From positions 1-5,005 of the forward strand of contig CALGCE010000242.1 of the NCBI GenBank assembly GCA_937884625.1: a stretch of DNA of 5,005 bases, in the 5' to 3' direction. The notes beneath the pieces were generated by a model. That model did not search any database. It saw only the letters and a program-made list of their open reading frames with translations, and was not told the DNA's origin. Source of the DNA: an uncultured Clostridia bacterium. GTDB lineage: Bacteria > Bacillota > Clostridia > Oscillospirales > Acutalibacteraceae. Positions 1-5,005 of this stretch are shown here, in pieces (position 1 is the stretch's first letter; every line of letters starts with the position of its first letter). Made by a program: the position numbers and the translations under genes.

Positions 1-695
1 CGGATAACGTTGATAAGCTTATGCAAATGTTCCAAAACGGTATAGCGGTAAGCGGTGCGTATTCGTATGACACTTCAAATAAGGCTTTAAATTCTTTTGG
101 TCTTGATAATCCCGAACTTACACTTAGTATGAAAATTTTGTCAAAAGAACTAATTTACAAGTTTAAAATGCAGTCTGACGGAGATTATGCTGCTTGGTGT
201 AACGAGGGTAATCTCATATATAAAGTGGGTGCGTCCACAATTGAGAGTATCGTCAAAGGAAGTGCAACGTCTTATTATTCATCAATGGTATGCCTTTATT
301 CAATTAATGACCTTTCTTCGCTCACGGTAGGTAATTATACTTTCGGAATAAAAGCACTTGAAGAAGACGAGAATAACGATGACAAATATGAAATAACCTA
401 TAACGGCAAGAAAATTGACTGTACAAGTTTCCAGAATTTCTATCAGTACGTAGTATCACTAAATTGTCTTGATTATACAACCGATAACGCTGTTAAAAAT
501 GATACCGTAAAACTGATTTTCTCGTTTAAAGACGGACGAAATGTCAATATAGATTTTGACAAGACAAGTGAAACAAAGTATCAGTATTCCTTAAATAGTG
601 AGCCTATGGGCAAGGTTTCGTCATCTTCCGTAAAGAAACTTTTAAAGTATGCCGAAAAGGTGGCAAACGGCGAAAAAGTAAGTGAAATTAAATAA
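1..695 (+). CDS. DUF4340-like protein, C-terminal part (5' end outside window)
   Basis: The reading frame is open from base 3 to a tandem TAA TAA stop (693-698), giving 230 residues. It runs in frame past the first ATG at 21, so that ATG is probably internal and the true start lies left of the window. The segment near the left edge, with FGLDNPELTLSMKI followed by an alternating hydrophobic strand and a GDYAAW...NLIYKV stretch, resembles the repeated 'GLd.P..tv...y' pattern of DUF4340 proteins. The end has a short basic helix (SVKKLLKYAEKVANGEKV), also common there. DUF4340 proteins are usually membrane-anchored by an N-terminal helix and often sit beside GldG-type ABC transporter genes. Both would be upstream and cannot be checked here. 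No signal peptide or membrane segment is visible in this part. Molecular function is unknown. The family call is from remembered pattern only, so it is moderate. Confidence 0.6.
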   Translation, partial: DNVDKLMQMFQNGIAVSGAYSYDTSNKALNSFGLDNPELTLSMKILSKELIYKFKMQSDGDYAAWCNEGNLIYKVGASTIESIVKGSATSYYSSMVCLYSINDLSSLTVGNYTFGIKALEEDENNDDKYEITYNGKKIDCTSFQNFYQYVVSLNCLDYTTDNAVKNDTVKLIFSFKDGRNVNIDFDKTSETKYQYSLNSEPMGKVSSSSVKKLLKYAEKVANGEKVSEIK

Positions 696-702
696 TAAGG
701 AA

Positions 703-2181
703 TTAAAGTATTATACAAACAAGCCCGTTGCAACCGTCGTTTATAACACGCTCGATGGTTTCCTGTACACGCATTCTCGCATCTACGGGCATACGGGCAA
801 GTTTTGTATGCAATCCTTCGTTTACGAGTTCGTGGAGTGACTTGCCGAATATATTTGAATCCCAAATTTTAACGGGGTCTTCTTCAAATTCGTCAAGCAG
901 GTACATAATTAGGTCTTCCGACTGCTTTTCGGTGCCAACAATAGGGCTTACTTCGGTAGTAATGTTTGCTTTCATAAGATGAATGGACGGTGCCGATGCT
1001 CTGAGCCTTACCCCGTATCTGCCACCCTGTTTTACGATTTCGGGTTCTTCGAGGGTAAGTTCTTCGATAGACGGCATTACTATTCCGTAACCCGTAGCCT
1101 CCACCTCGTCAAGAGCGTCTTTAACACGCATATAGTCGGCTTTGATTTTTGCAAGTTCGGATATGCTTGTCATAAGTTCCTGTTCGTCTGCAATATTAAG
1201 ACCGGTGGTTTCAGCAAGGACTTTATAGAATAACGGTTTTTTAACGTCAATGCTTATTTTTGCACTGCCGTACCCTAAGTCTATAAAGTCTGTTTTTACA
1301 CCGTCTACGTTTTCACTGTCAGAGAATGCTTTTTCAAAACAGTTAATATCCCTTATGTGTTTAATTTCCATAGCGGACTGCTTTATTGACTGTGTAAGGT
1401 CGGAGCGGAGCCAATGGTCTACGGGAAGGGTGTTAATCCAACGTGGGAAATTTATGCATATCTCTCTTACGGGAAATTCATAGAGTACACGGGAGAGTAT
1501 GCGTTTAATATCGTCCTCGTTAAGTTCAAGACAGTTTACGGGTATGACGGGAACACCGTATTCTTTACTTAATTCCTGCGATAACTCTTCTGATTCGTCC
1601 GAATCGGGATACATACAGTTAAGCAATACAATAAAAGGTTTGTTTATCTGTTTAAGTTCATCTATAACCCTGCGTTCTGCTTCGGCGTATTCTTCACGTG
1701 GTATATCGCTTATACTGCCGTCGGTTGTAATTACAAGACCTATTGTTGAGTGTTCGTTTATAACCTTTCTCGTGCCCATTTCAGCCGCCATATTAAAGGG
1801 TATCGGCTCTTGGTACCACGGTGTTCTCACCATACGGGGTTGGTCGCCCTCTATATATCCCAATGCACTCGGCACTATGTAACCAACGCAGTCTATAAGT
1901 CTTACGTTCATTTTGGCATTGGTATTAATATTTATTTCAACCCCTTTTTCGGGAATGAATTTCGGCTCGGTCGTCATTATCGTGCGTCCCGATGAAGACT
2001 GCGGTAATTCGTCATTAGCCCTTTCTTTTTGGTAATCTTCGGTTATGTTGGGAAGTACCAACTTATCCATAAACTGTTTGATAAAGGTTGATTTTCCGGT
2101 ACGCACAGGACCTACAATGCCAATATAAATATCTCCGCCTGTTCTTGCGGATATGTCCTGATATATACTTGTATTTGTCAT
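703..2181 (-). CDS. spoIVA: Stage IV sporulation protein A (spore coat basement ATPase)
   Basis: SpoIVA polymerises on the mother-cell face of the outer forespore membrane, using ATP hydrolysis, to form the basement layer on which the spore coat is built. It is also needed for cortex formation. The product is 492 residues, the same length as the Bacillus subtilis protein. Visible landmarks match the family: Walker A GPVRTGKST at 24-32 (Lys30), the sensor threonines Thr70-Thr71 in SGRTIMTTEP, and the Walker B Asp97 in VRLIDCVGY. The usual GTPase NKxD specificity motif is replaced by LLNCMYPDSD, in keeping with ATP rather than GTP use. The C terminus ends GCNGLVCIIL, close to the conserved GGGGLICIIL tail. 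The ATG has a strong GGAGGA site just upstream. In Bacillus its partners are SpoVM and SpoVID, and in Clostridioides SipL; none is in the window. The gene lies alone downstream of an unrelated co-directional operon and converges on the DUF4340-like gene with a 7-bp gap. Expression is expected from a sigma-E promoter. Confidence 0.98.
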   Translation of the reverse strand: MTNTSIYQDISARTGGDIYIGIVGPVRTGKSTFIKQFMDKLVLPNITEDYQKERANDELPQSSSGRTIMTTEPKFIPEKGVEININTNAKMNVRLIDCVGYIVPSALGYIEGDQPRMVRTPWYQEPIPFNMAAEMGTRKVINEHSTIGLVITTDGSISDIPREEYAEAERRVIDELKQINKPFIVLLNCMYPDSDESEELSQELSKEYGVPVIPVNCLELNEDDIKRILSRVLYEFPVREICINFPRWINTLPVDHWLRSDLTQSIKQSAMEIKHIRDINCFEKAFSDSENVDGVKTDFIDLGYGSAKISIDVKKPLFYKVLAETTGLNIADEQELMTSISELAKIKADYMRVKDALDEVEATGYGIVMPSIEELTLEEPEIVKQGGRYGVRLRASAPSIHLMKANITTEVSPIVGTEKQSEDLIMYLLDEFEEDPVKIWDSNIFGKSLHELVNEGLHTKLARMPVDARMRVQETIERVINDGCNGLVCIIL

Positions 2182-2187
2182 AAAAAT

Positions 2188-2193
2188 TCCTCC
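2188..2193 (-). promoter_or_regulatory. Ribosome binding site of spoIVA
   Basis: Read on the minus strand this is GGAGGA, six bases before the ATG at 2181-2179. It is a near-perfect Shine-Dalgarno sequence and fixes the start codon. It lies inside one arm of the inverted repeat at 2174-2269, so its accessibility may depend on where the transcript begins. Confidence 0.85.
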
Positions 2194-2236
2194 GAAAACT
2201 TTTTTATTCTGACAGGTCTTACCTTACACTGTTAGA

Positions 2237-2265
2237 TAAATATGAAGTCGGAGGTAAATTTATGA
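2237..2265 (-). promoter_or_regulatory. Candidate sigma-E promoter for spoIVA
   Basis: On the minus strand, TCATAAA (2265-2259) resembles the sigma-E -35 consensus kmATATT. It is followed after 14 bases by CATATTTA (2244-2237), which keeps the CATA core of the -10 consensus CATACAnT. Transcription would start near 2230, about 50 bases before the spoIVA ATG. spoIVA is a known member of the sigma-E regulon in Bacillus and Clostridia, so a promoter of this class is expected here. The match is partial. A second -35-like TCATATT at 2245-2239 has no good -10 at the right distance. Confidence 0.45.
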
Positions 2266-2278
2266 CAAACTATATTGT

Positions 2279-3154
2279 TTAAATTCCTGTTAAGTCAAAG
2301 TTTGGTATATAATTCTTTGAAGAACTTGACAATTCCTGAAAATAACAGTTTGAAAACTCAGTATTGCATATATAGTTTAATACCTTTTCGTATTCTCTGC
2401 GTGTCACTTTTCTGTTGATTTCGGGGAATTTGTCTGCCTTACCGCAGGGTAGGTACTGCGACATAATACTGAAATAGGAATTTTTAAGGTTTTCTCTTAC
2501 CCATTCAAAAATGTTTATCGCATCATTTGTTCCCTGTGGAAGTAATAAGTGTCGCACTATAACACCGCTTTTCATAATGCCGTTTTTTATAACGGTGTTA
2601 TTTTTTTGTCTGTATGCTTCAAGAAGTGCATTTTTCGCAACTTCTGGGTAATCGTATGCAAGAGAATACCTTTTTGCTCTCTCACTTGACATATATTTAA
2701 AATCCATTAAATAAATATCAATGTAATTTTGGAGGGATTTTAAGGCTTCAACACTGTCATAACCGCCTGAATTATATACAATGGGTATATTCGGTTTGTA
2801 AATATCAAGGGCGTTTTTAATTGCGTGAACATAGTGGGTAGGGGATACAAGATTGATATTGTGTGCACCTTTTTCTTCAAGTTCTTTAAAAATTTGGGCC
2901 AGACGCTCTACCGTAACGGTTTCGCCGTACCCGTCACTACTTATAGAATTGTTTTGACAGAAAACACATTTTAAAGGACAACCGCTGAAAAATACCGCAC
3001 CTGAACCGTCACTGCCACTGATACACGGCTCTTCCCAAAAATGCAAATCAGCCCTTGCAACACGGGGAAGCAAGGGCATTTTACATATTCCGTTAATATT
3101 ATCACTATCTGTACGTTCAGCCGAGCATTTTCTCGGACACAGATTGCATAGCAT
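2279..3154 (-). CDS. Radical SAM protein, PflX-like (COG1313, pyruvate formate-lyase activase-related)
   Basis: The 291-residue product matches the family of uncharacterised radical SAM proteins related to pyruvate formate-lyase activating enzyme (PflX/COG1313) across its full length. The 4Fe-4S/SAM motif is C59-x3-C63-x2-C66 in FFSGCPLKCVFCQNN. Other family blocks are NLVSPTHY (101-108), IPIVYNSGGYDS (from 123), DIYLMDFKY, VIVRHLLLPQ and SIMSQYLPCG. An N-terminal Cys cluster (C3, C6, C10, C24; CNLCPRKC...GIC) precedes the barrel and may bind a second metal centre. Substrate and reaction are unknown for this family; the link to pyruvate formate-lyase is by homology only. The start overlaps the end of the exonuclease gene by 38 bases. 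The next Met (residue 26) would remove the conserved Cys cluster, and a GAGGT site precedes the chosen ATG, so the overlap is probably real. It is the last gene of the typA-led group and lies 97 bp before spoIVA. Confidence 0.88.
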   Translation of the reverse strand: MLCNLCPRKCSAERTDSDNINGICKMPLLPRVARADLHFWEEPCISGSDGSGAVFFSGCPLKCVFCQNNSISSDGYGETVTVERLAQIFKELEEKGAHNINLVSPTHYVHAIKNALDIYKPNIPIVYNSGGYDSVEALKSLQNYIDIYLMDFKYMSSERAKRYSLAYDYPEVAKNALLEAYRQKNNTVIKNGIMKSGVIVRHLLLPQGTNDAINIFEWVRENLKNSYFSIMSQYLPCGKADKFPEINRKVTRREYEKVLNYICNTEFSNCYFQELSSSSKNYIPNFDLTGI

Positions 3155-4022
3155 TATCGTTTACCTCAATTTTTTTCTTCTTCATTTCGCAGATTTGCTT
3201 TTTTACCGTTACGTGGTCAAAATACTTTCTGAAACTGATACGTCCCCTAAAAGTCCTTTTGCAGTTTTTACAGCGAAATACTGCCGTAAAATATCTGTTT
3301 TTAAAGTGCCATTTTGAAATACGTTTAGTTTTTTCGCCACATACATCGCACATAAAGAAAAGTTGTGATTTATCCACGCCGTCATCATTTAAACTTTTTA
3401 TATAAAACGGTTTAAATGTGAGCGACTTTAAAAAATCGGGATTTGAAGCATCTTTTAAATACATCACAAAATTATTTTTGTGATAATACTTTTTTAAAAG
3501 CAGTGCACATACAATGCTATCGTCCTTTGCGGTGTGCAAATCAAGATTTTCGGTACTTATGTTTGAGAGTTGTGCCGCATTACCGAGTGAAATTTGCGAT
3601 TTTAACTCTATACCCAAATTTCGCAATTCGCTTTGAATGTATTTTTGCAAATCAAGATATTTTTCAAGTTTGAATTTTGTATTTTCAAGTAAGTACGTTT
3701 CATTTTCTATGATGGTGTGAATATCCGAATCACTCCAAGTCATAGTTACGGTATCGTCACCTTGCCACTCGTTGTACTTTTCTACTGCCGTGTCAAGCGG
3801 TATACCCGATAACATATCTTCACTTGTAATTCCCGTAAGTTCGGTAAATCTTCCCGATACTTTGTTTTTAAGCGAAGATTTTACAGTCACCTCAAAGGTG
3901 TCGCAAATGTCAAAATTACCGTCTAATTTTACGGCACCTATCTGCAATATTTCATTTACAAATCTAGAATGTTCTTTGCAGTAGGCGTAGTCCCACTCCA
4001 TATCAAGAATTACGTAGTTCAT
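3117..4022 (-). CDS. DEDDh 3'-5' exonuclease (ERI1/KapD-like) with C-terminal zinc-ribbon-like module
   Basis: The 301-residue product starts with an RNase T/DnaQ-type exonuclease fold. The metal-binding residues of a DEDDh enzyme can be placed: D7 and E9 in VILDMEW, D100 in TWSDSDIHTI, and H163 with D168 in LHTAKDDS. The block SLGNAAQLSNI before the last motif, and FTELTGIT after the second strand, fit the ERI1/KapD-type subfamily better than DnaQ. Such enzymes remove nucleotides from RNA or DNA 3' ends; the substrate here is unknown. Residues 225-254 carry C225-x2-C228 and C251-x2-C254 in a basic, aromatic context (KWHFKNRYF between the pairs), which looks like a zinc ribbon for nucleic-acid binding. 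A lysine-rich tail follows. The ATG overlaps the typA stop by one base (TGATG). Only a weak GAGG lies upstream, 13 bases away, so translation is likely coupled to typA. B. subtilis KapD was described as an inhibitor of the KinA sporulation pathway; that this protein shares the role is not shown. Confidence 0.85.
   Translation of the reverse strand: MNYVILDMEWDYAYCKEHSRFVNEILQIGAVKLDGNFDICDTFEVTVKSSLKNKVSGRFTELTGITSEDMLSGIPLDTAVEKYNEWQGDDTVTMTWSDSDIHTIIENETYLLENTKFKLEKYLDLQKYIQSELRNLGIELKSQISLGNAAQLSNISTENLDLHTAKDDSIVCALLLKKYYHKNNFVMYLKDASNPDFLKSLTFKPFYIKSLNDDGVDKSQLFFMCDVCGEKTKRISKWHFKNRYFTAVFRCKNCKRTFRGRISFRKYFDHVTVKKQICEMKKKKIEVNDNAMQSVSEKMLG
3163..3167 (-). promoter_or_regulatory. Ribosome binding site of the radical SAM gene, inside the upstream gene
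   Basis: On the minus strand GAGGT lies eight bases before the ATG at 3154-3152, within the last codons of the exonuclease gene. It supports the overlapping start and suggests translation coupled to the upstream gene. Confidence 0.6.
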
Positions 4023-5005
4023 CAGCGGTTCTTCGCCTCAAACTTCATACGTTGTTCCTTATTGAGTATGCGTTTTCTAAGACGGATATTGTTAGGCGTT
4101 ATTTCAACAAGTTCATCGTCTTTTATAAATTCAAGCGACTGTTCAAGGCTTAAAACTGAATGAGGTACCAAACGCAGTGCATCGTCAGAGCCTGATGCTC
4201 TTGTATTAGTCATCTGCTTTTTCTTGCATACGTTACATACTATATCCTCATTTTTGGGATTTTCGCCTACTATCATTCCCTCATATACGGGGGTTGACGG
4301 ACCTATAAACAAACGACCTCTGCTTTGTGTATTAAACAGACCGTAACCCGTAGCCTCACCGCTTTCGTGTGCTATAATTGAGCCGGTGTTTCGCTGTTCA
4401 ATGTCACCCGTATACGGTTCGTAACTGTTAAATACGTGATTCATAATACCGTTACCGTTTGTATCAGTAAGGAACTCTGAACGATAACCAATAAGGCCAC
4501 GAGATGGGATTGAAAACTCAAGGTGAGTTGAGCCACCCTCATGTGCTGCCATATCCTTGAGCTCACCCTTACGTGAACCAATCTTTTCAATTACTGTACC
4601 AACATATTCGCCTGGTACCTCAACAACAAGAAGCTCCATAGGTTCAAGAAGTTGACCATTGTCATCACGCTTCATGATTACCTTTGGACGAGAAACTGCG
4701 AACTCATATCCTTCACGACGCATTGTCTCAATAAGGATTGAGAGATGAAGCTCGCCACGACCAGATACTTTGAATGTATCTGTCGTATCAGTCTCCTCAA
4801 CTCGCATTGAAACGTTAGTTTCAACTTCTTTGAAAAGACGGTCACGGATATTTCTTGATGTTACAAATTTTCCTTCTTTTCCTGCAAATGGGCTATCATT
4901 TACAGAAAAATTCATTTGTAATGTAGGTTCATCAATGTGAATTAAAGGCAATGCTTGAGGGTTATCAAGGGAAGAAATCGTTTCCCCAATTTGAACTTCC
5001 GGAAA
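4022..5005 (-). CDS. typA: Ribosome-associated GTPase TypA/BipA, C-terminal half (5' end outside window)
   Basis: TypA/BipA is an EF-G-like translational GTPase that binds the ribosome and aids growth under stress and 50S subunit assembly. The frame is open from the right edge to TGA at 4024-4022, giving 327 residues of an expected ~605. The N-terminal G domain is therefore missing from the window, although a TTG at 4951 could be mistaken for a start. The segment begins at the end of domain II (EVQIGETISS, then the family motif LPLIHIDEPTLQMNF). It runs through the EF-G III-like part (VSGRGELHLSILIETMRREGYEF), the V-like part (SRGLIGYRSEFLTDTNGNGIMNHVF) and the TypA-specific C-terminal domain (KKKQMTNTRASGSDD, SLEQSLEFIKDDELVEITP, IRLRKRIL). 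No frame break is seen. Codon use changes sharply within the gene: no ATA Ile codons upstream of about 4376 and almost only ATA downstream. It heads the minus-strand group of genes in this window. Confidence 0.96.
   Translation of the reverse strand, partial: FPEVQIGETISSLDNPQALPLIHIDEPTLQMNFSVNDSPFAGKEGKFVTSRNIRDRLFKEVETNVSMRVEETDTTDTFKVSGRGELHLSILIETMRREGYEFAVSRPKVIMKRDDNGQLLEPMELLVVEVPGEYVGTVIEKIGSRKGELKDMAAHEGGSTHLEFSIPSRGLIGYRSEFLTDTNGNGIMNHVFNSYEPYTGDIEQRNTGSIIAHESGEATGYGLFNTQSRGRLFIGPSTPVYEGMIVGENPKNEDIVCNVCKKKQMTNTRASGSDDALRLVPHSVLSLEQSLEFIKDDELVEITPNNIRLRKRILNKEQRMKFEAKNR

Follow-up and report, generated by a model that had tools for sequence, protein, structure and literature searches.

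How might a sporulation gene that lies close behind other genes on the same strand escape translation from RNA that runs in from its neighbors? The question is raised by spoIVA in the window, by which we mean the whole 5,005-nt stretch of DNA analyzed here. The features discussed below are listed in Table 1. The stop codon of the radical SAM gene and the ATG of spoIVA are separated by 97 nt on the same strand, and a terminator scan combined with a hairpin search of this gap gave no terminator. An Rfam 15 search of the window yielded no match above the gathering score, a search of a plasmid collection with the spoIVA upstream gap had no match, and Pfam and NCBIfam scans of the window identified no gene as part of a mobile element.

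Table 1 Features of the window (minus strand; promoter, start and fold features are predictions).
Feature	Position	Strand	Basis or remark
spoIVA	703–2181	-	TIGR02836 equivalog, 737 bits over 492 aa; three SpoIVA Pfam domains
Radical SAM gene	2279–3154	-	Pfam Radical_SAM; adjoins spoIVA on the upstream side
Exonuclease gene	3117–4022	-	
typA, 3' part	4022–5005	-	
Outer 5' arm	2259–2270	-	Houses the -35; duplex and fold, 12 pairs (one G-U) with the start codon region
Outer 3' arm	2173–2184	-	Spans the start codon and codons 2–3; duplex and fold
Inner 5' arm CCTCCGA (anti-Shine-Dalgarno)	2248–2254	-	In the promoter spacer; 7 pairs with TCGGAGG
Inner 3' arm TCGGAGG	2189–2195	-	Contains most of the Shine-Dalgarno; duplex and fold
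Shine-Dalgarno GGAGGA	2188–2193	-	Sequence; position -12 from the ATG
U-rich stretch AATTTTT	2182–2188	-	Between the Shine-Dalgarno stem and the start codon; T at 5 of the 8 nt before the ATG
Predicted sigma-E -35 element TTGTCATAAA	2259–2268	-	Within the outer 5' arm; score 15.5 of 16.5, spacer 14
Predicted sigma-E -10 element CATATTTA	2237–2244	-	Promoter motif scoring
Expected own-promoter transcription start (predicted)	2230	-	Rule: 6 nt after the -10 element

Some observations concern the flanks of the locus. KapD was the top NCBIfam match of the exonuclease, although at 49.7 bits it lay far under the cut-off of 169 bits; expression of the B. subtilis KapD is controlled by SigE and SigK (excerpts of PMC11736430). 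An open-ended ORF of 230 aa on the plus strand (window 3–695), convergent to spoIVA, had no Pfam or NCBIfam match. Within typA, nucleotide identity to the nearest relative (locus L001) was 0.61–0.75 at window positions 4406–5005, compared with about 0.90 at 4106–4405. Since typA is expected to be evenly conserved along its length, this drop may reflect a chimeric join near 4400–4450 or a recombined stretch.

Inverted repeat and predicted folds upstream of spoIVA

The first-pass annotation of this DNA had drawn attention to an inverted repeat at 2174–2269, and a repeat search recovered it. The two 34-nt arms, at 2174–2207 and 2236–2269, were 76% complementary (26/34) across a gap of 28 nt, and the 22-nt initiation region of spoIVA had an inverted copy matching 19 of its 22 bases. 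When the upstream stretch was shuffled 5000 times with dinucleotides preserved, no match this good arose (mean 11.6, maximum 16).

Promoter scoring likewise located a -35 element within the upstream arm and an expected start near 2230, both as the annotation had anticipated. The underlying two-part motif, TTGTCATAWW-N14-CATANNNT, scored well upstream of most spoIVA genes (77 of 97 loci passed) and was found at 118 of 188 distinct spoIVA upstream regions in an enlarged set, with a spacer of 14 in 116 of these 118 promoter loci under a score that penalizes other spacers. In G001, the genome of L001, spoIIID has the same layout (GTCATATT-N14-CATACAAT), and the motif occurred at 48 of 50 spoIIID loci; the elements in the window stand at this shared spacing, which served as our mark of a sigma-E promoter. 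The letters used to name the window promoter are those that we take to be the sigma-E consensus. As this consensus fits, and as spoIVA is driven by sigma-E in B. subtilis, we call it a predicted sigma-E promoter. According to excerpts of PMC517825, sigma-E switches on spoIVA in B. subtilis and also controls spoIIID there. A search pattern for the promoter was not enriched in G001 (4 matches vs 5 in the control); the pattern demands a final T and so misses the spoIVA promoter of L001. At the expected start, window positions 2235–2229 read CTAACAG, and TAACAG, TACAAA or TACCAA directly follows the -10 element in 58 of the 118 promoter loci.

For RNA arriving from the upstream genes, helices over the initiation region had been proposed, and folding of the long RNA produced two: a 12-pair outer helix spanning the ATG (2270–2259 with 2184–2173) and a 7-pair inner helix spanning the Shine-Dalgarno (SD) sequence (2254–2248 with 2195–2189). 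In long RNAs starting from -125 to -300, the predicted cost of opening the SD was 14.1–14.2 kcal/mol, and that of opening the stretch from SD to AUG was 18.5–20.3 kcal/mol. The RNA from the gene's own promoter (from -49) was predicted to open at the SD for about 2.4 kcal/mol, because it lacks the covering arms, and its predicted openness held for every assumed own start from -66 to -43. The start site was thus predicted to be closed in the long RNA and open in the short one at all lengths and starts tried. None of 1000 shuffles of the upstream part reached the 14.15 kcal/mol of the window (mean 3.07, sd 1.27). The nearest relative, L001, with 95% SpoIVA identity and likewise a radical SAM gene upstream, keeps both helices with the help of G-U pairs; its SD opening cost was 10.96 kcal/mol, and 9 of 1000 shuffles were as high.

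We hold, with moderate confidence, that the inverted repeat at 2173–2270 acts as a read-through lock on spoIVA. RNA entering from the radical SAM gene would fold in such a way that the spacer copy CCTCCGA covers the SD, and in the same RNA the -35 copy would cover the start codon. RNA begun at the predicted sigma-E promoter near 2230 would be free of both covering arms and would be translated. Presumably, the upstream genes would be transcribed during growth, whereas spoIVA would be transcribed in the mother cell, and the lock would keep SpoIVA off outside the mother cell, provided that read-through RNA is present in growing cells and that the fold stops ribosomes in vivo. The radical SAM gene ends 8 nt ahead of the arm, and ribosomes finishing there might interfere with folding. 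In other lineages a U-run usually follows the stem, so that the lock may additionally stop transcription shortly ahead of the start codon. For the window, blocked translation is the likelier main action, given the long loop and an outer helix that lies past the U-run.

Recurrence across spoIVA loci

A single scan of genome contigs yielded 80 loci of 118 confirmed relatives, and a genus search together with fetched regions brought the collection to 141 loci with a start, among which 97 were distinct (L065 was excluded for its short length, and no start was present at L048 and L055). Folding covered the 77 of these first 97 loci that had a promoter; the 20 left out comprised 19 low-scoring loci and L136, whose promoter lies at -170. 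The six largest differences between long and short RNA were those of L040, L044, the window, L042, L143 and L122, all of which have a close co-directional upstream gene without a terminator. A class of loci was defined by a longest upstream ORF on the same strand, with its stop at -100 to -55 and no intervening terminator hairpin of -9.5 kcal/mol or better. The idea dates from the first 97 loci, and the cut-offs were coded once 151 had been collected; part of the data had therefore gone into making the rule.

A long-short difference of at least 7 kcal/mol was seen in 14 of 16 class loci vs 13 of 88 others (151 regions, 104 promoters; p = 2e-8, kinship ignored), and in 15 of 18 vs 13 of 100 in the enlarged set of 188 regions and 118 promoters (p = 6e-9, kinship ignored). 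Among loci beyond the first 97, the numbers were 3 of 5 in the class (L160, L152 and L233, as opposed to L170 and L243) vs 6 of 37 others; the class loci added after the cut-offs had been coded were L233, which shows the difference, and L243, which does not. Some of the 13 non-class loci that pass 7 kcal/mol lie behind a terminator (L057, L172, L173, L178). The median energy of the SD hairpin was -19.5 in the class, compared with -6.8 at divergent loci, -7.3 at loci with a terminator, -12.2 where the co-directional gene is farther away and -4.7 where there is none. Within the class, the SD fold was absent at L170 and L243 and weak at L105; at L170, at least 7 pairs over the start codon are possible despite the missing SD fold. 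On the question of whether relatives conserve the upstream arm, L001 keeps both helices, and L170, with a similar upstream gene end (by eye), is without the SD fold.

The two halves of the arm behaved differently in this comparison. The -35 box comes close to being the reverse complement of a TATGACAA start, and complementary runs of at least 8 between the -35 and the start were found in 34 of 88 loci outside the class vs 2 of 16 inside it (window 12, L001 10). Because the -35 nearly complements such a start, and because this pairing is common outside the class, the half of the arm that faces the start codon appears to be largely a by-product of the -35 and mostly incidental. Runs of at least 8 between the promoter and the SD, in contrast, were present in 13 of 16 class loci vs 9 of 88 others (window 7, L001 8); the resulting 22 of 104 loci compare with a mean of 11.5 and a maximum of 17 in 200 permutations of the partners. 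The half that faces the SD (CCTCCGA) is the special one and not a by-product. When arms were swapped between loci, the mean of the own duplex was better than both swap means in 7 of 8 groups, with L180 failing. Own pairing ranked in the top 5% both ways at half of the class loci (8 of 16), but not in the window, whose 5' arm also pairs well with the SDs of other loci.

The genes upstream differ between lineages. Pfam families assigned to them were radical SAM (window, L001), FkbM methyltransferase (L122), an Orn/DAP/Arg-type decarboxylase resembling lysA (L040) and a homoserine O-succinyltransferase resembling metA (L042, L044). The remaining FkbM assignments were made by eye, that of L152 from ORF length and the end of the ORF, and the neighbors of L160 and L105 were left unnamed. 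Going by their names, the upstream genes are presumably housekeeping genes. The arm itself consists of -35 and spacer in the window and L001 and of spacer and -10 in L040, and it takes in the -10 in the FkbM loci, L042, L044 and L152. A tree was built for 82 of the 104 loci together with 5 others. Class membership requires 6 changes on it, and supported branches force at least 4 of these. A single clade of the window with the FkbM and lysA/metA loci was rejected (p = 0.009), and a clade of the window with the FkbM loci was not (p = 0.271). Repeated gain of the lock across lineages is likely, as arms and upstream genes differ between them, but unproven, as the clade of window and FkbM loci stands. 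Paired tree contrasts on supported branches numbered 4, of which 1.4 on average went the same way and 0.6 the other way, and had no power.

Compensatory changes, which the first-pass annotation had suggested looking for in the two arms, gave a mixed picture. The window lineage consists of two sequences, and its SD stem shows one change to G-U and one gained pair (by eye). In the lysA/metA genus (4 sequences), 3 of 14 pairs carried a compensatory change, a count that 13 of 500 shuffles equaled or exceeded; a control slid by -3 also gave 3 such pairs, although 49% of its cells were paired vs 89%. Changes in the seven FkbM loci were one-sided G-U replacements, with no compensatory pair.

Alternative explanations of the repeat

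The most serious rival is that the structure is chiefly an intrinsic terminator of the upstream gene that has slid onto the ribosome site of spoIVA, with covering of the SD being secondary. As the promoter -10 sits in the 5' arm or the loop, sporulation RNA would pass such a terminator freely. The composition before the start codon speaks for it: T occupied on average 5.4 of the 8 nt before the ATG in the 16 class loci vs 2.8 at divergent loci and 2.9 at loci with a terminator (p = 5e-8 against all others, kinship ignored), and 4.9 in the enlarged class of 18. Stems of at least 12 pairs reach or enter the U-run in L040, L042, L044, L122, L132 and L143. Moreover, 32 of the 104 promoter loci instead have an ordinary terminator, placed between spoIVA and its upstream gene, and in several the T-run of this terminator enters the spoIVA -35 (TTTTTTGTCATA), by eye, as in L013, L014, L021, L046, L119 and others. 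In the window, however, the SD stem has just 7 pairs around a structured loop of 52 nt, and the 12-pair outer helix lies beyond the U-run; L001 has only 4 T before the ATG, and L233 shows the fold with 1 T. Loops of about 15–20 nt are also long for intrinsic terminators. The combination of a strong stem, a short loop and an adjoining U-run is thus missing from the window and better developed in L042, L044, L122, L132 and L143. We consider a primary role as terminator unlikely, though it deserves to be taken seriously. Termination may nevertheless act as well in most class loci, because the U-run follows the stem in most of them. Coincidence combined with shared constraint is improbable: here the sigma-E -35 TTGTCATA would complement the TATGACAA start simply by its sequence and CCTCCGA would occur in the spacer by accident. 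The -35-to-start runs outside the class, the good pairing of the window arm with foreign SDs and the 9 in 1000 shuffles for L001 fit this explanation, but it does not account for the SD opening cost of the window, which no shuffle reached, or for SD-promoter runs that are concentrated in the class and exceed all 200 permutations.

The repeat might also work as DNA, as an operator bound by a dimeric regulator such as a repressor of spoIVA. SpoIIID does switch off spoIVA in B. subtilis (excerpts of PMC517825), and the repeat flanks the promoter. Yet G-U replaces G-C in several loci, a change that is harmless in RNA but not in a DNA palindrome; beyond the anti-SD, the arms of different lineages share little, and the spacing between the arms varies. 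An operator is therefore very improbable. A phase-variable invertible promoter was considered as well, from the layout of the repeat. Returning to the read-through lock, the proposal of the first-pass annotation that it would silence SpoIVA made from read-through RNA gains from the predicted contrast between closed and open RNA and from its recurrence at spoIVA; it has to be qualified in that the start-codon half is mostly incidental and that termination is possible too.

Known systems and other sigma-E genes

The principle has a precedent in phage T4: the long early RNAs of e and I-TevI have closed ribosome sites, which are open when the RNA comes from a late promoter close by; the 5' part of the I-TevI helix is described as late-promoter-proximal, and soc and 49 are also named with inhibitory structures (excerpts of PMC3014915 and PMC2988022). 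As at spoIVA, the SD or AUG of e and I-TevI lies in a helix in the long RNA, and the RNA from the near promoter is without its 5' portion and gets translated. The T4 cases differ in being phage late genes with a late promoter, whereas spoIVA is a bacterial sporulation gene with a predicted sigma-E promoter; the covering arm at spoIVA is the -35 plus spacer (elsewhere the -10), and the stem is succeeded by a U-run at most class loci. Closer in biology is sigG (spoIIIG) of B. subtilis, which lies behind spoIIGA-sigE and for which a hairpin of 20+ bp, impossible in RNA from its own promoter, was proposed to block translation of spoIIG read-through RNA (excerpts of PMC5942855). Both are sporulation genes, but sigG is a forespore gene behind a sporulation operon, whereas spoIVA is a coat gene, expressed in the mother cell in B. 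subtilis, that lies behind housekeeping-looking genes and has arms that coincide with predicted sigma-E elements. Terminators that overlap promoters share the stem and U-run with most class loci; at spoIVA, unlike in these, the ribosome site forms the 3' arm and promoter sequence forms the 5' arm, and the stem in the window makes a poor terminator. For the transposase genes of IS10 and IS50, read-through RNA folds over the start site and RNA from their own promoter does not. Protection from outside promoters would be common to these elements and spoIVA, although the window has no identified mobile element.

The first-pass annotation knew of no such arrangement described for spoIVA. In the titles and abstract openings listed by searches of open-licence literature we likewise found no description of a read-through lock at this gene, but the proposal for sigG is a precedent within sporulation. 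The mechanism is thus already known (T4 e and I-TevI, and as a proposal sigG); new are its use at spoIVA, the promoter sequence as an arm, and the recurrence. If true, the lock would be a cheap and evolvable way of silencing a developmental gene behind housekeeping genes in tightly packed genomes, needing neither a separate terminator nor a regulator, as the transcribed copy of the promoter would serve as the antisense arm. Sporulation genes with close co-directional neighbors and no terminator should then carry such arms. A caution would also follow: conservation of a sigma-E promoter motif can have a cause at the RNA level besides the one at the DNA level.

A wider proposal is more tentative, and we regard it as somewhat likelier to fail than to hold. 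It supposes that sigma-E promoters are written twice, as a start signal in DNA and as an RNA arm, built from the -35, the spacer or the -10, that would shut the ribosome site of the promoter's own gene and in some lineages also terminate transcription; such arms would have arisen repeatedly at spoIVA behind housekeeping genes without terminators and would serve further sigma-E genes, spoIIID among them. We examined 50 spoIIID loci (L270–L299, L330–L349), defining the class here by a stop at -100 to -40, which is wider than the range used for spoIVA. With a fixed SD window of -14 to -6, 2 of 12 class loci reached at least 7 kcal/mol vs none of the 36 others (Fisher 0.059, rank test 0.001), namely L272 with 18.2 and L290 with 11.0 kcal/mol. 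A cruder run with a different SD window had given 4 of 10 class loci at this threshold, and the fixed-window run is taken as the main result. L272 and L290, from sister genomes, have a long and near-perfect spoIIID SD hairpin whose 5' arm includes the -10, and their same-strand upstream genes end at -57 and -60.

At 35 of the 48 spoIIID loci with a promoter, the -10 and the region of the start codon can pair along 7 bases or more. Shuffling the letters before the ATG gave a mean of 6.2 and a maximum of 13, and permuting the partners gave up to 34; because permuted partners pair this often, the match is mainly sequence shared by kin. The element CATACAAT is complementary to a ATTGTATG start region in 28 of the 48, and a leader resembling CCAAGTCCTTTTAGGAGTGGTGAT recurs directly before the ATG at several loci. 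For spoIIIAA (L300–L329), the 14 of 30 loci that passed included no class locus and no strong fold. Many spoIIIAA upstream regions have in common, by eye, the block TTCTA...GGACAACC (or GGACAAAC), which stops some 4 nt short of a CATA -10-like element and may point to a different promoter layout or to a binding site.
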